NCBI GenBank assembly: GCA_019096195.1
Contig: JAGTXK010000091.1
Location: forward strand, 558,001 to 622,000
Source of the DNA: Boletus sp. NGJ
Lineage: Eukaryota > Basidiomycota > Agaricomycetes > Boletales > Boletaceae
DNA: 64,000 nt
Reading direction: 5' to 3'
The translations under genes and the position numbers were made by a program. Positions 3,389 through 63,525 of the stretch are shown piece after piece. Numbering within the stretch: the stretch's first letter is position 1; every line of letters begins with the position of its first letter. A model generated the notes under the pieces. That model did not search any database. It saw only the letters and a list, made by a program, of their open reading frames with translations, and had not been told where the DNA came from.

Positions 3389-4185
3389 CTACACGGAAGC
3401 ATAGCCCGCCTTTTCCAAGTTCTCAAGGTAGGTCGCCCATCGCCCATTGTGCCACGTCGCGACGTTATTTCCCCAGATGACCTTGGTGACCTTGATCCAA
3501 GTGAGCCAGCCGGCAAGGACAGCATCTGCGTACGAGGCGGTGTTGCCAAGCACAAACTTGCCATCACTCTTCGCCAACCAATTATCGACCTGAGCGAGCC
3601 CCTCCTTTCCCTTTGCCAGATCAGCATCACGCTTCGGACCCTCTGGCGAAAACGCCTCAATCTTTTGACCAAACTTGGCCTCCCGAGTCGCCCTAAAGTA
3701 TTTCTCGCTGGGAGGGTTCAGGATGAAACAGCTGATTGCGAGCTGCAACGGCAGGATCCCGCCGATGGCGCCGACGACACTGCTCTCAAAGGCTTCGACG
3801 AGCGGCTTCGTGCCAGAGGGGAAGAGGGTGTTTCCGTTTGGGTAAGTGGCATCGAGGTATTCGGCGATGAGGAACGAGTCGGCGATGACCTTGCCGGTGT
3901 TGGGGTCGTTGATGATGGGGAGGGTATATGCCGGCGTGCCATCGTCCTTGGTGCCGGTGGCAGGTGCACCGATCTTCTTGGCGAGGGACTCAATGTCTGG
4001 GTACTCCACCCACTCGGTCTTGTAGGGGACACCCTTGATATTCAGTGCGTATCTGCGGGCTGTGTTTAGCGCCACGATGTTCCCAGGGAAAAAGGTTGGT
4101 CTCACCTCGTCTTCCATGTGTTGGGGGACCATGCGTTGACGCCGAGTTTGCTGGGGATATCGTAAAAGATGATTGGAGAGGACAT
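3389..4185 (-). CDS. GSTFuA-like glutathione S-transferase
   Basis: There are two exons: 4185-4106, a 53-bp intron (4053-4105, GTGAG...CAG), and 4052-3389. They join in frame to 247 aa. The N-terminal thioredoxin-like domain carries the AWSPNTWKTR segment typical of fungal GSTFuA/etherase-like transferases, where the Ser is expected to act on glutathione (family knowledge). A helical C-terminal GST domain follows. The protein is cytosolic with no signal peptide. These enzymes conjugate or bind wood-derived aromatics and other xenobiotics in wood- and litter-degrading fungi. The Met at 4185 was chosen because it restores the conserved PIIFYDIPS start of the fold. The longer uninterrupted frame starting at 4132 is just intron read-through. 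A TATATAA box lies 41 bp upstream. Confidence 0.9.
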
Positions 4186-4225
4186 TGTGAATTGAAGGAT
4201 GCCTGGGACGAAGGCAAGGTCTGGG

Positions 4226-18800: not shown

Positions 18801-21800
18801 GACAGTTCATCGAGCTTGTGTTTGGTGACGCCAGGCCGCTGAGAGTGTTCCTTGGTTTCTACCTGCAGATCCCTTGCCAGGCTTGCAGAGAATTGGCGGA
18901 GGAAACTCAGACTTTCTTCGTGAGAGCCATTTGCCCACATGTACTTCAGCTGAGCGTAGACAACATTTGGAGGTGCCTTCAGGTGTTGTTGATCATCCCG
19001 TAGATGCTGTAACTGATATCTCGATTCGTTATGCTGCGTCGATTGTCTTCAAGACTACGACTCACCCTCTCCGGAGATAGAAGCGAGTTGATCGTCTTCT
19101 CCGCCAGTGCCATTCGGTCCGATTTTCGACACAGGTTCGCAAATTTAATCCACATGACAGGATCGTCTTCAGGATTCAAAACAAGCGCCCTGACCTGCAA
19201 AATACGTTGCCAGGTCTCGACGTCAGGCTGGCAGCCTTGTAGTCTGGTAGCATATAAGTTGACGTATTTAAAGCAAGCATCGAGGCACGCACCGCTTCAT
19301 CCACGTCTTCCGCATCGCTTGTTGCTGTTCAGGTTGGTCAGCGTATTGCTTGTACATTATGATTTCCTCGAGTTCGGACAACATCTGCGCGCGGACCAGA
19401 GTGCTGGGTAACGTTAGGTCAAGCGCTGAAACTGAACTGAAAGATGCCTCACTTGTATGAACGACCATAACCTTCGCCAACGAAAGACGTCAGTTCCGGC
19501 TCCAGCAAGTCCCGAGCTTTTCCTATTTCCCGCAGTGCCTTGGGGAATTGATTCTGGTGAACAGACAAGATAGCTTTGTAGAACGCTCGATCCGGCGAAT
19601 CGCCCCTCATCGTTGTGATGTAGTCGTCCATCGAATCCCACTCGTGTAACGACCATGCGGCGGCGGCGGCCATCGGGGCAATTTCCCTACGGTCTTCATG
19701 GTTCGCATTTGACCAATTTTCTTCTACTTGTGCCGCGAGTTGATCCCACTCGCCAAGTGCGTGTAGACATTTCATACGTCCAATTTGAATGTCAGGTGCG
19801 TCAGGATCCTCCTCCGCCTTTTTCTCATAGGCAGCCAATGCCTCTTGCCATCTTCCGAGTCTCTCGTACCATTCCTCGTGCTTACTAACGTCGTATTGCT
19901 CTCGTGCGATAACGAGCGTGCCCCAAGCTGCATCATGTTGCTGAAGCTTGGTATTGATACCAATTAGTGCCTCGATAATATTCGGCGAAGTCTCGGTGAA
20001 AAACTCCAGTTCCTTGTAGTGCAGCGCTTTCGCATATGCATGGAATTTCATGGCATACTCCCCGAGAGTACGATGTTCTATAGGCAGCGGCTTCTCCTCA
20101 TGTTCCATAAACTCTGCGAGACTGAGTAATCGGTGAATCAACTCCGAGGGTGCAGTAGGAGAAGTGATCGCAGATTCGATGGAGCGGACAAGTCCTTCCT
20201 AAGAAGATTGTCACGATTCAGGAACGCGGTGGGATTGTCAGTACACGTACTTGATACTGGTCATATAGCTCAGTCCAGCAAGAGATGAAGGCAGCATTAC
20301 AAAGCTCCTTCGCAAGTGGTGGATGGAACTCAACCAAGCTCATGCAGGCTCTGAGGGCATGCGAGGGCGACTCTTTCATGAATTCCACAGAGAGGCGGTG
20401 CATCCACTCTGTCCAATCCTCTCGCGTAGAAACAGAAGACACGTCCCAAGCTTGTTTCAGATGCTGTTGATTGACAGTCAGCTTGGCTGGCTCAGCGGGT
20501 GCCGAGATTTCGGCGACTCTCGAATTCTCTAGTAAATCATGGATGCCCGACTCTTGAGGCAAGCGTTCACCATTCAAGAGCTTGTTAATGAGATTTTCGT
20601 ACCGCGGGTGGTGTATACGGTTACGGAGCAAGCACTACAGGTATTTGAGATTTCACTGGAATTAGAGCGGTTGAAGGAACGTACCTTATTGATCATGGGA
20701 ACGAAAATAGCGAAATCTGAGCCAAGCTGGACGACGATGGCACACAATGTGTCCATTACCGCCATCCGAAGCTCGTTATTTTGTCCATCAAGAACTCGAA
20801 CAAGGGGATGTACGATGCGCGAAGCGTGGTCCGAGAAATTGACACGTAGGGATAGATGAGCCACCGTCTGAATAGCTCGTTTGCGAAGAATGGTGGTTGC
20901 ATCGAGCCTCTCCGCCGCTTTGACGATAATCGGGATGATAAGATGCAAATATTCCTCGATGTTTGCACCGAAAGTGAGGAACGAATCGAAAATTTTTATT
21001 TGTGTTGCCATTCTCTTCTCGGTGAGCTCCCCTTCAAAAACTTTGAGGAGGAGAGGCAAGATGGTGGGCAAGAAAGGTCTGAACTCGGCGTCCAGCGCTT
21101 TCCCCAGTGCTTCAACGAGCGAGACGATAGGAAGTTGGAGGGACGTGTTCTCCCAGAGGTCGGTGACGAGTTTGAATACCTCGGGTGTATAGTTTCGGAC
21201 GTGTTGCTTGATGATTCCAACCAAGATCGCGAGTTGCTGTAGGTGGAACTCCTGCAGCCGAGCGGTGGATGTACGTGCAACAGCAGCAAATGCTGGGATA
21301 ATCTAAGAGAGATGTCAACCAAACATTGTATTGCTTATTCAGCGATGGATACCTGTGGTAGGAAAGTGACACATTTCAAGCCCTGAGTTTTGAAAATGTT
21401 CATGATAGCTTCGATGACGGTATGGTGATGATTGCTCATAGACTGATCCCTCAGGACGGCCAACAGTGACGTGATGACTACAGTCTGGTAGTAGTCGTCG
21501 GAACCTGTCAAGGATCCAGTGCTCGTGATGGCAGCTGCATTGACAGCGGGGAGAGTCCCCTCGACGGCTCCATCTTCATCTGGCTTTGTCTGCCACCGGA
21601 CTTCTAAGCGGGGCATAGATGCACAGCGGAGCAACTCACCTTGCGTCTGTAGGGGTCGAGTGCACCAAGGATGCCCAAGACCTTGACGATCTCCCTGACG
21701 ACCTCGCGGCGAGATGAACCGGACTCTGTCCTCAAGATTCTTCCGAGAATGGGGAGGAGCTGAGGGTAGTCAACCAAGGGAGAGATGACGTAACCAGTGC

Positions 21801-24414
21801 TTGAACAGAGTTGGCCCAAGGTGCGCAAAGCTGCATCTCTCTTGACGTGTGCTGGGTCTTGTAGTCTGGAGATGATGACTTGCATTAGCTCGGGAGTGTG
21901 AGGGGTGACGTCCTCGCCTCCCACGGCGGCGAGTTCGCCGAGACACATCAATACGTTGGCGGCGACGGCTGGGTTGCTGTCGTTGGCCTTGGGGATAAGG
22001 ACGCGGAGGATAGGGAGGGCATATGGCTTGATGAGTCTCTGGGTCGCGCTAACGAGCAAGGTGAGGAGACGTGTGCAATCCTCGCGGTTGCGTCTGGGGA
22101 GGGGTGAGCTGGGGAAGAGTGGAACAGAGGAGATACACACGTACGTGACGGTGGAATACTCCAACTCGGTGAGGAGCTGTATGAGGGCCTTGCGGAGGGA
22201 TGGCATGACATACGCGGGGTTGTGCTTCGCGAGACGGCCGATCAGGCCAACGGCGGTGACGCGGTTCTCGAACACCTCGTCATTGAGCGAGATGAAGATA
22301 GAGCGAACATTCTCGGCCTGTGCGAGGTGTTTGTCGAAGCGTTCGTGCAGCGACGAAAGTACAGTCTGCCGTATCGTCGGGTCTGCAAAATGACTTGAGC
22401 AACAACGACAACTCAATGACCGCTGCACCCACCAGGATCCGCAATGCCAATAGTGAGCAACTTATCCAGCACGTCGCTGATGATCTCGATCGCGTGACTG
22501 CTTGCCTGGTAGCAGATCGGATCTCGCATAAACAACTTGCAGCACGTCAGCGCACCCGCCCGCCGCACGTCTGCGTTGTCATCCTCCAGGTACGGCAGCG
22601 CCGCACTTCGAACGAACTCGTTCAACACGTGTCCTATGCTGCACTCAGAACAACTTCGAGCACTGGGTTCACTCGTCTTACCGCTAAAGTCAAACGAACC
22701 AAGTGTAGAGAGCGCAAGTGTGATCAGCTCGGTACTCTTTCCCGTCTTCGCAGCAGCCAAGTCACGCGGATACGCAGCGACATCGCCCCGCACTGGTGAC
22801 TGTGGCGCCCCGATCACCTTGTACGGCTGTCCGATCAATATCATCGACAGTAGGTCCAACAATCGATCTTGGATGGTTTTCAATAGCGGTGGAATGTTCC
22901 TCGCGATCGCTACCAGGGCTTGTCGCAATGGCTCGCTCAGTCCACATGCAAAGAACAGGTCTAGCTGATCATGCAGCAGCTTCGTCAGGTTTGGCCCAAC
23001 AGCCGACGCCAGCATCCCAACACATTGAAAAATGGGCTCTTCTGATGGTGCATTCTTCTTCCTACCCTAGACGTGAGGAGCAACGATGCAACCAACGGCA
23101 TGTACGCACCCTCTTTGTTGCAGTCCAAATTTGATCTGAACCATGATAGAGTCGAGGAAAGGCTTCATATCGCTTCCTGTCGCAGTTGCAGTGTGCCCGA
23201 TAGCAATAAAGGCTATCATCCAGTGAATAGGCCTGGCAACGTTATTGTGCGAGGACGACGCACCAAAAGACCGCTCGTTGGGTTTCTCGAGCTGTGTGAG
23301 GAGGTGACTCATCGACCTGTGCAGGTAATGCTCAGAGAACGTTTGGGTGTCGTATGCTGCAAGAGTTGGTATGAGTGTAATAACCATTTTCCGCACCAGA
23401 CTGTCCCTGTGTGACTTGAAACGGAGAATCTGCTCTGCTGTGTCTAGGGATGACTCCCGCATAAACTACAAGCCAATGATTACATGTCGGTCTTCTACCG
23501 AGCACGAAGCTTCCGTCACTCACCGTGTCCCCATGGAGCAGCAACTCGCGATACATAAGGAGTGATCCGTGAATCACTTCGGGCTGCGCCATCCTCAACC
23601 CGAGCTGAGCGTCCTGAAGAATCTTCATGAGGTATGTCGTTCGTGTCTGCCGCTCTCTATTCGCCACAATCTCCAGGCATGCCGCCAAGAGCTCAGCGGC
23701 GCCCTCCCGAACCATGACACGAGAGTCACGCAGGGGAATAAGAATTTTGTCGAAAACAAGGCTGATGTGGGAATGAAAGTAGTTCGCGCTATTACGAGCC
23801 AGCTCCTTCAAGATGAGGACTCCGGCATAGCGTGGTGGTTCAGCGCCCTGGAGGAGCTCTACTGCTGCTGGCACTTCGAGATCCATGAACCCTTCTCCAA
23901 AGTCGGCGCCACCAATGGCAGCTATCTGCCCTAGAGTCTTTGAGGCGGCCAACATGATGTTGACATCGTGGTTCGGAAGAAGCTGTTTGACATAATTGTA
24001 GAACCTGTAGAGGTATCGCTTTGATCCAACGATGTCTTCGCCATCGTTCTCCAGAAGATGATCTATGTGCGAGATTCAAAAGGGTCCACTACGGCCGAAC
24101 GGAACATAGAGGTGCACCAATTGCTAACAATCCCCCTAGTCTCTCGACGTTGTTTTGGCTGTGCATGAGGTCGAATATTCGTTTGTTGATGTCGTCGTCC
24201 CACAGTTTTACTGCAGCGTCGTTTGGCATTTCGACTACTGTCGTTGCGACCTACAAGCAATTCAACAATGTAGCGAGATCGTACAACGTCCGAGACCCAC
24301 ATAGCGACGCAAGTCAACTGCAGCTTGAAGGCGAGCGTCATGACTAGAATTGCGGAGTCCTTGAAAGATCTGACCAAGGTTGTCTGTGTGGATAGAAGTG
24401 ATAGTTGACGCCAT
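15843..24414 (-). CDS. TOR: TOR serine/threonine kinase
   Basis: This is the largest gene of the window: 8.6 kb, many ~55-bp introns, product estimated at 2,300-2,400 aa. The start [18 protein letters not shown] is at 24414. HEAT repeats fill about 24400-20570. The FAT domain spans about 20150-18000. The FRB domain (17940-17600) keeps EASRLFF with the rapamycin-contact Ser (codon 17893-17895) and KAWDIYY. The kinase domain has [15 protein letters not shown], the catalytic loop [11 protein letters not shown] and HIDFGDCFE (about 16740-16640). The FATC domain ends GWCAFW, split by an intron, with TAA at 15843-15845. TOR is the nutrient-sensing catalytic core of TORC1/TORC2 at vacuole and plasma membranes. 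All key motifs are present and no break is seen. Confidence 0.96.
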
Positions 24415-55135: not shown

Positions 55136-55271
55136 TCCATCCTCAGTTACCGGGCTGCTCCGTAATAATAAGTTACTTGGACGCTTGACACTTGGTCGTC
55201 CTGACGTCGGACGTTGAGCGCGCGAGTCAGAATTTAAACATAACCTGGCCAGGGCTATCTTCTATGCGGAC

Positions 55272-58200
55272 ATGAAACATCTTCTCTCTACTCTCTTTCG
55301 GCGCGCCATGTCGATGGCAGGCAACGTGCAGTTACCATCGACGGGGGACGAACCCTTACTCCCATCGACCTCGCGCGATGCCACACTAAGTAAGTGCGAG
55401 CTTCGAATAGAGGGCATGACTTGCGGTGCATGTGTAGCAGTAAGTCCTTTGGCGTTCGGCTGCAGTGACATTCACACCCTCGCAGTCCATCGAAGGAGTA
55501 CTCCGAACGCAACCTGGTATATACTCTGTAAAGGTAGCCCTCCTCGCCGAACGCGGTATCGTCGAATACGACCCATCAGCGTGGACCGCAGAGAAGATCA
55601 TCGACGTAACTTTGTCCATCATGCCTCTCTTTCTCCGCTCATCATCTCACTCACGCAGGAAATATCGGACATTGGATTCGATGCCACCCTCGTTCCTGAA
55701 GCTCGGTCAGATACAGTCACACTCCGAATATATGGCATGACCTGCTCGTCATGTACTTCCACCGTTGAGAATGGTCTCCGCAACATGCCTGGCATCCATA
55801 ATGTCGCAGTCTCCCTTGCCACAGAGACCGCAAAGATCGACTTCGAGCCTAGCATAATCGGTCCACGAGAGATGGTCGACAGAATCGAAGAAATGGGCTT
55901 TGACGCTCTGCTTTCCGATCAACAGGATGCTACTCAGAAACAGTCTCTCGCGAGGACCAAAGAAATTCAAGAATGGTTTAATCGCCTCAAGTGGAGCGTT
56001 GTCTTTGCCCTACCCGTCTTCTTCCTTAGCATGGTCGCACCTCACATACTCTGTTTACTCCCCATTGTCAGCTGTCACTTGTTCAACGGCATCTATCTTG
56101 GCGACATTCTCATGCTCATCCTTACTACCCCCGCGCAATTCTGGATCGGTCAGAAATTCTATCGGAATGCATTCAAGGCACTGAAACATAGAAGCCCCAC
56201 CATGGACGTTCTCATCATGCTTGGAACATCTGCTGCATACTTTTATTCCGTTTTTGCCATGCTTTTCGCAGCCTTCAATACCACTCCCGATTTCCGCCCT
56301 TTTGTCTTCTTTGACACGAGCACGATGCTCATCATGTTCGTCTCTCTCGGTCGCTGGCTGGAGAACCGTGCGAAGGGCAAGACCAGTGCCGCACTCACAG
56401 ATCTCATGGCTCTCACGCCGACAATGGCCACTATCTACACAGATGCGCCAGCATGTACGCAGGAAAAGCGTATCCCGACAGAGCTCGTACAAGTAGGTGA
56501 TACGATCAAACTTGTTCCCGGGGACAAGGTACCAGCGGATGGTACTGTCATCCGTGGTTCCTCCTCCGTCGACGAAAGCGCCATCACCGGAGAACCCGTT
56601 CCCGTCCTCAAGCAGGCTGGTGATACAGTCATCGGTGGCACTGTCAATGGCTTGGGAACATTCGACATGCTCGTCACGCGTGCAGGCAAAGATACTGCAC
56701 TTGCGCAGATCGTCAGACTCGTCGAGGAAACCCAAACGTCCAAAGCCCCTATCCAGGCATTCGCAGACCGCATTGCAGGGTACTTTGTGCCAGCGGTGAT
56801 CGCACTCTCTGTGCTCACGTTCGTGGCATGGATGATTATTGCAAATGTACTCAATGTGGACGCGTTACCTGCGATGTTCCATCGACATGGGGTAAGTAAG
56901 CTCGCTGTATGCTTGCAGATGTGTATATCGGTGGTTGTTGTGGCTTGTCCTTGCGCGTTGGGACTGAGCACACCAACCGCCATCATGGTAGGAACAGGGG
57001 TGGGAGCACAGAGCGGTATATTGATCAAAGGCGGGAGAGCATTGGAAGCAAGTCAATCTATCAAGCGGATAATACTCGACAAGACCGGTACAGTGACCGA
57101 GGGCAAGCTTGGTGTCGCAGGGCTGGTATGGATTGCTCCGCGGGACAGTCATCTCCCTGATGAAGCCACACTCACAGTCGAGTGTGCAGACGGGGTGACG
57201 ACTCGTGCAGCTGTTATCGCAATGCTATCAGCAACTGAAGCACGTTCAGAACACCCTCTCGGCAAGGCCATTGCGGTATACGGCAGGGATATCCTAAGGG
57301 AAGGAGGATGCGACGTACCGCAACCTACGGTAGAGTCGTTCGAGAGCGTCACTGGAGTTGGTGTCAGAGCTGTCCTTTCCCTCTCCGCATCAAAGTACAC
57401 CCTTTTGGTTGGCACACCCAGATTTGTCACACAAACTGAAGAAGCGATACTACCCTCCACGTTATCAAGCTTCGAGGCACGAGAAAGTCCCATGGCACGA
57501 ACGGTCGTGTACGTATCGATGGGTCGTGGCTCGTCTTCCCCTGTTCCCATCCTAGCATTATCCCTCTCAGACGCGCCAAAGCCGTCTTCCGCACAAGCCA
57601 TCAGGGCTTTACGGACGATGGGTATTGAGGTTGGTATGATGACAGGCGATGGGATGAGCACTGCTTTAGCTGTGGCGAGGCAAGTAGGTATTCGGCCCGA
57701 GAACGTGTGGGCGAATATGAGTCCAAAGGGCAAGGCTTCGCTTGTGACCGAAATCATGAAGAAGGAAGGGAGAGGAGTCGCTATGGTAAGCTTCAACCCG
57801 ATCCATGCTCCCTCTGAGCCAACTTCTTGCACTACAACAGGTTGGAGATGGGATCAACGACTCCCCTGCGCTAGTGGCCGCCACCGTTGGCATCGCCCTT
57901 AAATCTGGCACATCGGTTGCCATTGAAGCGGCCGACATTGTCCTCATGCGTTCTGATCTCCTCGATGTCGTTGCTGCCCTCGACCTCTCTCGCACCATCT
58001 TCCGTACGATCCGGAGGAACCTCGGGTGGGCCTGTGTCTATAATTTGCTAGGGATTCCGCTTGCGATGGGGTTACTTCTTCCCTATGGAGTCTATATGCA
58101 TCCGATGATGGCAGGTGCTGCGATGGCATTCTCGAGTGTGAGTGTGGTGACGAGTTCGCTGTTGTTGAGGCGGTGGAGAAGACCGGTAGAAAGTGTCTTG

Positions 58201-59890: not shown

Positions 59891-62800
59891 TCAGTCCCGT
59901 GCCATCCAGTCGGTGCTCCGAGAGACCAACTCGATTGAATTGTCCGTGGTCCAGAACAAGCGCTCGGTAGCGCTCCGATTACTCCAGCTCTTTTGGTCGC
60001 GCAGTATCATAGCCTACAAGAGCACTTAGAGTTCATTCCCAAGTTGAACAACTTTATGCTTACCTGCTGTGCGCCAAGGTTCCGTTGATCGTGAGCAAAC
60101 AACTCAACGTTTTCCTCTAGTGCCTCTGACAGAATTTGAAGGTCCTGCAGGATCGCTTGCATCGCACGAACTGCCCCGAGAATAAGAATCTCTTTGCGGT
60201 TGCGTATAGTAGTGCCGTCGCTGTTAGGCGCCGGCAATGTCTTGGATACGTTTTGGAGAACTGTGTGGAGGATACGTTTGGTCTCGTTCATGATTTTCTG
60301 TGCTTGCGGGAAGTTTTTCCTCGAGACTAGGACGAGCGCACGGGTGATCATGTCCGATGCAAGGAGTTCCATCCGGCGCCGTACGATGACGGGGTCTGAG
60401 GGTTTCGGGGGTTTTGGCGAGCCAGATGCAGCCATAGGTAGGAGCGTGATAGTCAACAGCACAGGATGCGCAAGTCGAGATACCTGCTTCGTTGCGGCAG
60501 GGTCATAGAAAGAGCCATCCACCTCGAATACAGGCACCTCATCAATCATTCGATCCATCATGCCGTCCACAAGGTTCGGAGAGTCTTCGATAGCTAGTGA
60601 GTCGAGGCCCATGGATTGGACGAATTGATCGGTTGCATTTAGGGTCCGGCTACCGTTTTGACCTGCTGCTGTACGACGGCTTTCGGTATTATCGAGTTCG
60701 CACTCGATGAGCATCTCTTTGCATTCTCCGTACCGCAGCTCACCAACGTCAATGTCGACGTTGTGACCGTCAGTGGACAGTACTGATGAGGGACCACCAG
60801 AGACCTTGCGAATGCGGAAACGTTGTCCATCGACGATCTTCATGTGAAGTTTCATGTTGAGCAGGCCTATTGACATCATACCACCCACGCAACCAGCAAG
60901 ACATGCCCGAAGATCGTACCAATCCTTGACAAACGTGTATGTTCCGCTGGTGTGGTTCGACATAAGCCAGAGGGAGGCAGGGTCATGTGAGCGCCCGTAA
61001 CCGAACGAATGAATAGGCATGTTAGCTGCCTCGGCGCGAGCAAGAACCAGATCCATCTGAGCACGTCTCGTGCTATCCGCAGCGTCGCTGACGAGTATCA
61101 TCCCTGAGACCGGATTACGTGACTTGCGTTGCAATACGACGTCAAGGCCTATGTGGTGTCATCAAATCTTGATCATGGATGTAGATGAGAAATATCACTA
61201 ACCATGATTGACAGCAGTTACCACGTCAGTCTTTTCATCTTTGGAAGCTCTGATCAAGAACTCGTCCTCCGTACTCTGATTGCTATCCGGTCGTCCAATT
61301 TCGTCAATGAATTTTTGCAATCGGTTTCTGCTGTGGGTCCGCCCTGGGCACAAGTAAGGCGTTTTCCGCACTCGGCCCCCTGCCCCGACCTCGAAGGTCA
61401 CCAAGCTCAACCGGTCTTTTATTCCAAGAGAAGCAAGGAAAAAGTCAAGTGATGTTTTGATCACACGTATTTTGAGATCTGCAGTGCTGCGAGGTGAATT
61501 TGGAGGCGGCAAGGACATGATGAGGATCAAGTCAAGGGGTGGATGGGGGAGAGGCGCGAGGGAATTGGATGGTCCTGATGATACATGCGGTGTTACAACG
61601 CCCGAAGGTCGGGTATCGTAATGCAACATCGTATCCTCCTCGCTCAGGGTCTGCAGCTTGTTTTGCATTGATCGTTGATGGACCGAGCCTTGCGACGTGG
61701 CCGATGATAGGGTGGATCGTGAAGACACCTGGAGAAGGCTGTCCGCAGAGCTGGGTGTGGTAGAAGCTGTGCTAGCGCTTAGCGCACGAGATAACTTCTC
61801 TGAAGCACCAAATTCCTCTATGTCCAAACCACCGCCAAACGCAGGAGGAGAATGATTCCCTTGATGTTGTTGGAAAGAGGTGACAAGGGCTTGGATCTGG
61901 CTTCTCCACGCCTCAAGCGAAGAGCGATCTTTGAAGACGAGAATAAAGGAATCCAAGCGTTCATCTTCCATCTCGATCGTGAGACTCAGGTCTCCAGTTG
62001 TGTTGGTAGTAATCCGCTTGATGTGCCGCACGTAGATACGCCCCTTTAACCTAAGAAATCCTCTCGACTGACTGCCTGAACCAGATATGGCGGTCGACGA
62101 GTCGTTGAACCCAGGAGAATGCAAGAAGCGACCGAGGGAACGCTTCTTCTCTTCTACTACGCAGATAATAGCTTCTTTGAATAAATAGACGGAAAATTCC
62201 CGGACAAGTGAATCGCGGCGGACGGACAGTAAATCGTACATCTGCAATGGGCCAAGCCCAGATAGCGCATGACCCTTCCAATCAATAATTCGATTTCTGA
62301 GATCGTCGACGATCGCGTTGAAAGGGGATTCCTCCTCAAGAGATTGCGACGGCGCATACCGTGACGATTCCGTATCGGTAGCGTTGTATGGAGGAGCCCA
62401 TCCATCAGACGACGGGTAATGTGGGGGCTGTCGCTCTGAGCCCCGTGGTGTCAGTTGAGAGAGTTCGGTATCTTGTCGTGTGTGTATGGAAGTGTTTCGA
62501 AGGGGAAATGGTTCTGACACCACTGGCCCAGGTATAGGGGATGTATTACGCCTTGCAGGAAGTTCGATGACGACAATACAAGTGAGCGGCTGGGACATAT
62601 CTCCAGACCTGGCAATGGATGAGAATTCAGGCCGGACCTGAATAGAAGGAGCGACGACATAGTGAGAATCACTGGGTGTTGATTTTACAGAGACGGCATG
62701 ATCAGTGGGGTCATCGTCCATAGGGTTGTATGGTGTTGTCGGCGGAATGCGACGGTTTCGTGAGGCTGGTGTATCGCGGCCGGGAAAAACTGCGGGAGCA

Positions 62801-63525
62801 AGGGGATCACCCATGCCTGTGAGAGCAGCCAATTCTATGGACGGGGAATGAAAACTGTTCGACTTGTAGTACTTGAACAAAAACACTGACTGTTTGTTTT
62901 GCTATTGTCGCCATCACCGACTTTCATGGGACGACGGCACACGCCGCACACGCCCAAGTTGGACTTGCGAGGGACGGCGGACCTAGATTGACCAGGGGGA
63001 GGGCCATAGACAGCAGTAAAACATGCCTAGAGAACGGGGAATATGAGAATGTGAGAATGAGTAGATCTGCGTGCTTACTTCGTGAAGTGAATGCCCGCAT
63101 TCGGGGACAACGTGAGGCTTTTCCCCTGGCAACCTGAAGCTGAAACTGAGAGGCTCGAGACACACGGGACATTCCTGTTCATCGTCGAGGGTATCATGAT
63201 TTGAGACAACGGGGAGTGGTGGAGGTGGCATAGGTGCGAAAGGATGATGGTTATGGTTATCGGGGGTGATTCTTGAAGAGTCAGAGGAGTGGAGGGAGAC
63301 TTGGGAGGGAGAACGAGCGAGTTTGCGGTGGAAAACGGACTGGAAACCCTTGAGAGTTGAATTCTTAAAAGTGGGCGCCTTTGGGGCTGCGCGAGGAGGG
63401 GTAAAAGTGGGGGAAGGGGGGAGTTGATTGAGGGTATGTAAGTGATGAGAGTCTAAAGATGGAGACGGATCCGCTTGATTTCGGGACGACCAAGAAGGCG
63501 AGTGTGAGAGGGCAAGGGATCGCAT
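59891..63525 (-). CDS. RING-H2 / PH / vWA scaffold, Ste5/Far1-like
   Basis: Five exons with introns 63027-63078, 62835-62890, 61149-61202 and 60014-60063 join to 3,423 nt (1,140 aa). Residues 1-118 are disordered with a basic, possibly amphipathic stretch (STLKGFQSVFHRKLARSP). A RING-H2 spans residues 119-179 (CPVC, C-G-H, H-E-A-C, CGVC), split by intron 1. A Ser/Pro linker follows. A PH domain lies at about 385-510 (SVYLFKEAIICVVEEKKRSL to SLEAWRSQIQALV). A vWA domain lies at about 630-830 (LILIMSLPP, DRLSLVTFEVGA, ILVSDAADSTRRAQMDL, GYGRSHDPASLWLMSN). The vWA lacks the metal-binding DxSxS. RING-H2, PH and degenerate vWA in this order and spacing is the layout of yeast pheromone-MAPK scaffolds Ste5 and Far1. 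Function here is inferred from architecture. Confidence 0.8.

Follow-up and report, generated by a model that had tools for sequence, protein, structure and literature searches.

A gene of Boletus sp. NGJ encodes a protein for which the best reading, and in our view a probable one, is membership in the Ste5/Far1 type of scaffolds. The strongest support for kinship with Far1 and Ste5 comes from the layout of the protein, in which a RING-H2 finger, a PH domain and a probable vWA-like domain follow one another in this order; direct homology to the yeast proteins is not established, and the assignment to the Far1-like group therefore rests on the architecture. The first-pass annotation of this locus had proposed a scaffold of the Ste5/Far1 type, and a RING, a PH domain and a probable vWA in the proposed order are indeed present, whereas the label 'Ste5' is better replaced with 'Far1-like', which fits better.

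Gene model and distribution

The gene is located in a window of 64 kb, the whole stretch of DNA that was analysed (Table 1). The reading frame is kept through the splicing of five exons and yields a protein of 1,140 aa with a stop codon at the end, and another stop codon lies immediately 5' of the first ATG, in the same frame. The five-exon, 1,140-aa model drawn up in the first-pass annotation is borne out in full, being in frame with GT-AG borders at four out of four introns. When exons 3 and 4 and the frame of exon 1 were searched against the 32.8 Mb genome, no second gene of the Far1-like kind emerged, the sole extra match being the PH domain of a Cdc24-like protein described below. No relatives were found among viral contigs (queried with exons 3 and 4) or contigs of prokaryote genomes (queried with exon 4), a result confined to viral and prokaryotic DNA, and a scan of the last 522 aa of the protein against NCBIfam returned no family.

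Among the other genes of the window, several long open frames on the minus strand (19449-24075), of which the one at 20574-21302 carries an mTOR_dom match, probably belong to a TOR kinase gene. A P-type ATPase with a heavy-metal-associated domain is encoded on the plus strand (55218-57902) and a glutathione S-transferase-like protein on the minus strand (3389-4225).

Table 1. The Far1-like gene of Boletus sp. NGJ and the features of its product, with positions counted from the first letter of the window.
Feature	Residues (aa)	Window position (nt)	Strand	Remarks
Far1-like gene		59891..63525	-	in-frame join; introns of 52, 56, 54 and 50 nt, all GT-AG
Exons of the Far1-like gene		63525-63079, 63026-62891, 62834-61203, 61148-60064, 60013-59891	-	
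Possible basic amphipathic membrane-binding helix	54-71	63313..63366	-	suggestive
RING-H2 finger	119-179	62937..63171	-	split by intron 1; eight C/H ligands; PF13445
PH domain, PH_10 type	388-508	61894..62256	-	PF15411; structural model; Foldseek
vWA-like domain without MIDAS (probable)	about 625-818	60910..61545	-	split by intron 3

RING finger and N-terminal stretch

The RING-H2 finger, previously delineated at the residues given in Table 1, is confirmed by a full set of eight ligands (C119, C122, C143, H145, H148, C151, C176 and C179) and by a match to PF13445 that, in a scan restricted to the N-terminal 223 aa, exceeds the cut-off (27.3 bits against 25.2). In the whole protein, the same family scores 24.3 bits, below the cut-off of 25.2, and five Pfam RING families match within aa 117-180, all of them under their curated cut-offs.

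A basic, amphipathic stretch had also been suggested to precede the RING, in the position of a membrane-binding helix of Ste5 and Far1. Such a helix is possible and not outstanding: the segment at aa 58-71, with a hydrophobic moment of 0.50 and a charge of +4, ranks 22nd among the 489 proline-free 14-mers of the protein. When the N-terminal region of Far1 (provisional sequence) was aligned to that of the Boletus protein, 102 of 2000 shuffles were equally good, and the aligned letters overlap the possible helix in its first part only.

The PH domain and its similarity to that of a Cdc24-like protein

The PH domain, expected near aa 385-510, was recovered both by the PH_10 profile (PF15411, aa 388-508; 88.3 bits against a cut-off of 27.5, E 6e-25) and as a PH fold in the structural model. 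Two PH_10 matches exist in the genome, one in the Far1-like gene and the other in a gene on contig C103 (L002), and no third was found. The latter gene also has a sub-threshold match to PB1, and its PH_10/PB1 layout, as scanned from the PH domain onwards, marks the predicted product as Cdc24-like. In the alignment employed, the PH domains of the two proteins share 32% identity, and their local alignment reaches a z score of 24.7.

A model of the PH domain obtained from a two-sequence input comprising both PH domains is of moderate confidence (pLDDT 73, pTM 0.67) and yielded 994 Foldseek matches at E up to 10. Among the best 50 of these 994, the top ranks are occupied by RhoGEF DH/PH structures (Dbs, Trio, p63RhoGEF, SOS and Vav), which shows the domain to be of the RhoGEF type, and some Sec7-PH and GRK2 entries appear at lower ranks. 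Ubiquitin ligases, which the first-pass annotation had named as the structural matches that would speak against its reading, are absent from the same best 50 of 994. Cdc24-type Rho GEFs and the Boletus Far1-like protein carry PH domains of the same Pfam family; however, the latter has no RhoGEF or PB1 matches (E up to 1) and carries RING and vWA matches instead. A common origin of the two PH domains, whereby the ancestral Far1/Ste5 scaffold would have captured the PH domain of a Cdc24-type GEF, Cdc24 being the GEF that yeast Far1 carries, and one protein would, in Boletus, serve both polarity and MAPK signalling, is conceivable, and we regard it as doubtful.

The vWA-like region

The vWA-like domain, a probable one, is less well supported than the RING finger and the PH domain. 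In scans of the whole protein, PF13768 matches aa 738-811 (22.4 bits against a cut-off of 27, E 1.4e-4) and PF00092 matches aa 725-818 (19 bits against 23.8, E 1.7e-3), both below threshold; for the last 522 aa alone, the scores are slightly higher (24.9 and 21.4 bits, respectively), yet still sub-threshold. These profile matches cover only the second half of the domain, the first half having been delineated by eye. Of the fold that had been placed near aa 630-830, the second half is accordingly backed by sub-threshold profiles, whereas the first has no profile match. The predicted lack of a MIDAS motif holds, because the lone DxSxS of the whole protein sits at aa 19, outside the vWA region. 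A genome search with PF13768 matched two other places and missed the Far1-like gene, and an AF2 model of the region, built without an alignment, has a pLDDT of 35.5.

Comparison with yeast Far1 and Ste5

Yeast Far1 and Ste5 contain RING, PH and vWA domains in that order. The Boletus protein has a RING, a PH domain and a probable vWA-like region in the same order, whereas pairwise significance is confined to a generic match between RING fingers. The yeast queries used throughout were provisional sequences, of which the vWA part of Ste5 and the Fus3 peptide agree with PDB chains. Of 54 segment pairs compared by local alignment, three passed the filter, one of them being the pair of Boletus PH domains described above. 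The Boletus RING aligned to two versions of Far1 with z scores of 6.1 and 6.6, none of 300 shuffles being as good. Among 23 further RING loci in the genome, one beats its score against Far1 (57) and the next ones reach 56 and 55; read without splicing, as those loci were, the Far1-like gene scores 47, a value equalled or surpassed by five of the 23; judged by sequence, the similarity to Far1 is generic.

Neither of the remaining domains gave a significant signal: in end-free alignments, the Boletus PH domain was matched by 109 of 500 shuffles against Far1 and by 30 of 500 against Ste5, whereas the Far1-Ste5 control was significant (1 of 500). The PH domain of the Cdc24-like protein did slightly better than that of the Far1-like protein (28 of 500 against Far1 and 9 of 500 against Ste5), and a weak, sub-threshold PH_10 match was obtained for the Ste5 segment used here (14.1 bits, E 0.059). 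For the vWA region, 36 of 500 shuffles were as good against Far1 and 500 of 500 against Ste5, and here the Far1-Ste5 control failed too (427 of 500). In single hhalign runs (n = 4), the PH and vWA pairs had probabilities between 0.1 and 0.2, and the full proteins, aligned on the RING, reached 6.7. A phmmer search of PDB sequences with the whole protein returned five weak matches and no Ste5 chain, a search with the vWA region returned none at E up to 10, though Ste5 vWA chains are present in that set, and full-length Far1 had no match in the Boletus genome at E up to 10. The Far1-like reading is somewhat weakened, and a rival reading as a ubiquitin ligase slightly raised, because the PH control passed where the Boletus PH domain did not and because the searches of PDB sequences missed Ste5.

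Far1-like proteins of filamentous fungi

According to the available text of PMC4010548, BcFar1 of Botrytis is a protein of 1,173 aa encoded by a gene with four introns, with RING, PH and VWA domains at aa 134-186, 428-566 and 632-812, respectively. The Boletus protein is very close to it in length (1,140 aa), equal in the number of introns (also four) and similar in the positions of the domains. In the same text, AN5167 of A. nidulans and NCU07565 of N. crassa are given the same domains as BcFar1, and all three ascomycete proteins can be likened to the Boletus protein by their published RING, PH and VWA order. Moreover, sequence conservation between BcFar1 and yeast Far1 is there described as confined to the RING (PMC4010548), which agrees with our failure to align the rest of the Boletus protein to yeast. 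One difference concerns the RING itself, which is termed C3HC4 in yeast and Botrytis (PMC4010548, in the part available), whereas the ligand order of the Boletus RING is C3H2C3.

The accessible part of a review reports at least one scaffold of the Far1/Ste5 kind in basidiomycetes, as well as in ascomycetes (PMC3718343). The surprise with which the first-pass annotation had greeted such a scaffold in a basidiomycete is largely gone, given this report and the same layout in PMC4010548. Judged from listings of open-licence PMC papers, no work on a Far1-like protein of basidiomycetes came to light, and none is described in the available portions of PMC9027094, PMC5578929, PMC6455062, PMC9296135, PMC6887120, PMC5705715, PMC7295950, PMC11943073, PMC11355766 and PMC6506691, several of which treat yeast Far1. 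The Boletus protein is best considered a member of a known, little-studied family, expected rather than surprising. Basidiomycetes were reportedly assigned a single Far1-like protein by Cote in 2011 in mBio.

Alternative readings

The Boletus protein could be a genuine MAPK scaffold with the function of Ste5, holding together the homologues of Ste11, Ste7 and Fus3. This possibility, which is compatible with the Far1-like reading and which we consider rather unlikely, is in line with a domain set and order that are those given for Ste5 and with the presence of a vWA-like region; however, neither Ste5_C (PF12194) nor the Fus3-binding region (PF11610) was matched by the whole protein (E up to 1) or by its last 522 aa (E up to 10), whereas the provisional Ste5 segment matches both families. 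A genome search with PF12194 was empty, and the controls likewise gave no match.

Alternatively, the protein might be a RING-plus-vWA ubiquitin ligase that gained a PH domain and has no tie to pheromone signalling. Plant WAV3 is a ubiquitin ligase with RING and vWA, and the Vwaint family accompanies ligases of this composition. Vwaint has no match in the Far1-like protein (the genome search with PF14624 was empty, and here too the controls gave no match), the PH domain is of the Cdc24/RhoGEF type, and the domain order, length and positions are like those of the published Far1-like proteins (PMC4010548, available text), all of which makes a ligase improbable, despite the complete ligand set of the RING, its being no nearer to Far1 than some other RING fingers of the genome, and the ubiquitin-ligase RING fingers that constitute the best, albeit weak, whole-protein matches in the PDB (E 0.027 and above). 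Deletion of BcFar1, the single knockout found for filamentous relatives, caused no obvious phenotype, as far as the available text of PMC4010548 goes, a result that favours the ligase and also calls for caution with regard to the mechanism proposed below for a Far1-like protein.

Proposed role and genome context

We think it likely that the protein is the Far1-like scaffold of Boletus, of the Far1/Ste5 type. In yeast, the signalling chain leads from the receptor through G-beta-gamma, Far1 and Cdc24 to Cdc42 (PMC9027094, in the part available). By analogy, binding of pheromone to a Ste3-type receptor would free G-beta-gamma, which would in turn be bound by the RING region, while the Far1-like protein would be kept at the membrane by its basic N-terminal stretch and its PH domain. 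The Far1-like protein would recruit Cdc24 to the place where the signal arrives, and with Cdc24 also Cdc42 and polarised growth or fusion. The vWA region may also contact kinases of the Ste7/Fus3 type. Every binding step in this scheme is one that we infer from yeast.

Pieces of STE3-type receptors account for 24 matches in the genome, a STE12-type domain is represented by two pieces at one place, and the Cdc24-like protein (PH_10 and sub-threshold PB1) is encoded in the same genome. The many STE3-type pieces and the genome size of 32.8 Mb are compatible with a basidiomycete. A cluster of STE3-type pieces at G000:C56:100502-111683 (loci L007-L011 and L014) is possibly a pheromone-receptor mating locus, and more such pieces are found at 1.036 Mb of C102, the contig from which the 64-kb window is taken, as well as on C73, C59 and C16. 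Taken together, the clean gene model, the STE3 pieces, the Ste12-type domain and the Cdc24-like protein render a link, through the Far1-like protein of basidiomycetes, from the pheromone receptor to polarity and/or MAPK signalling testable.
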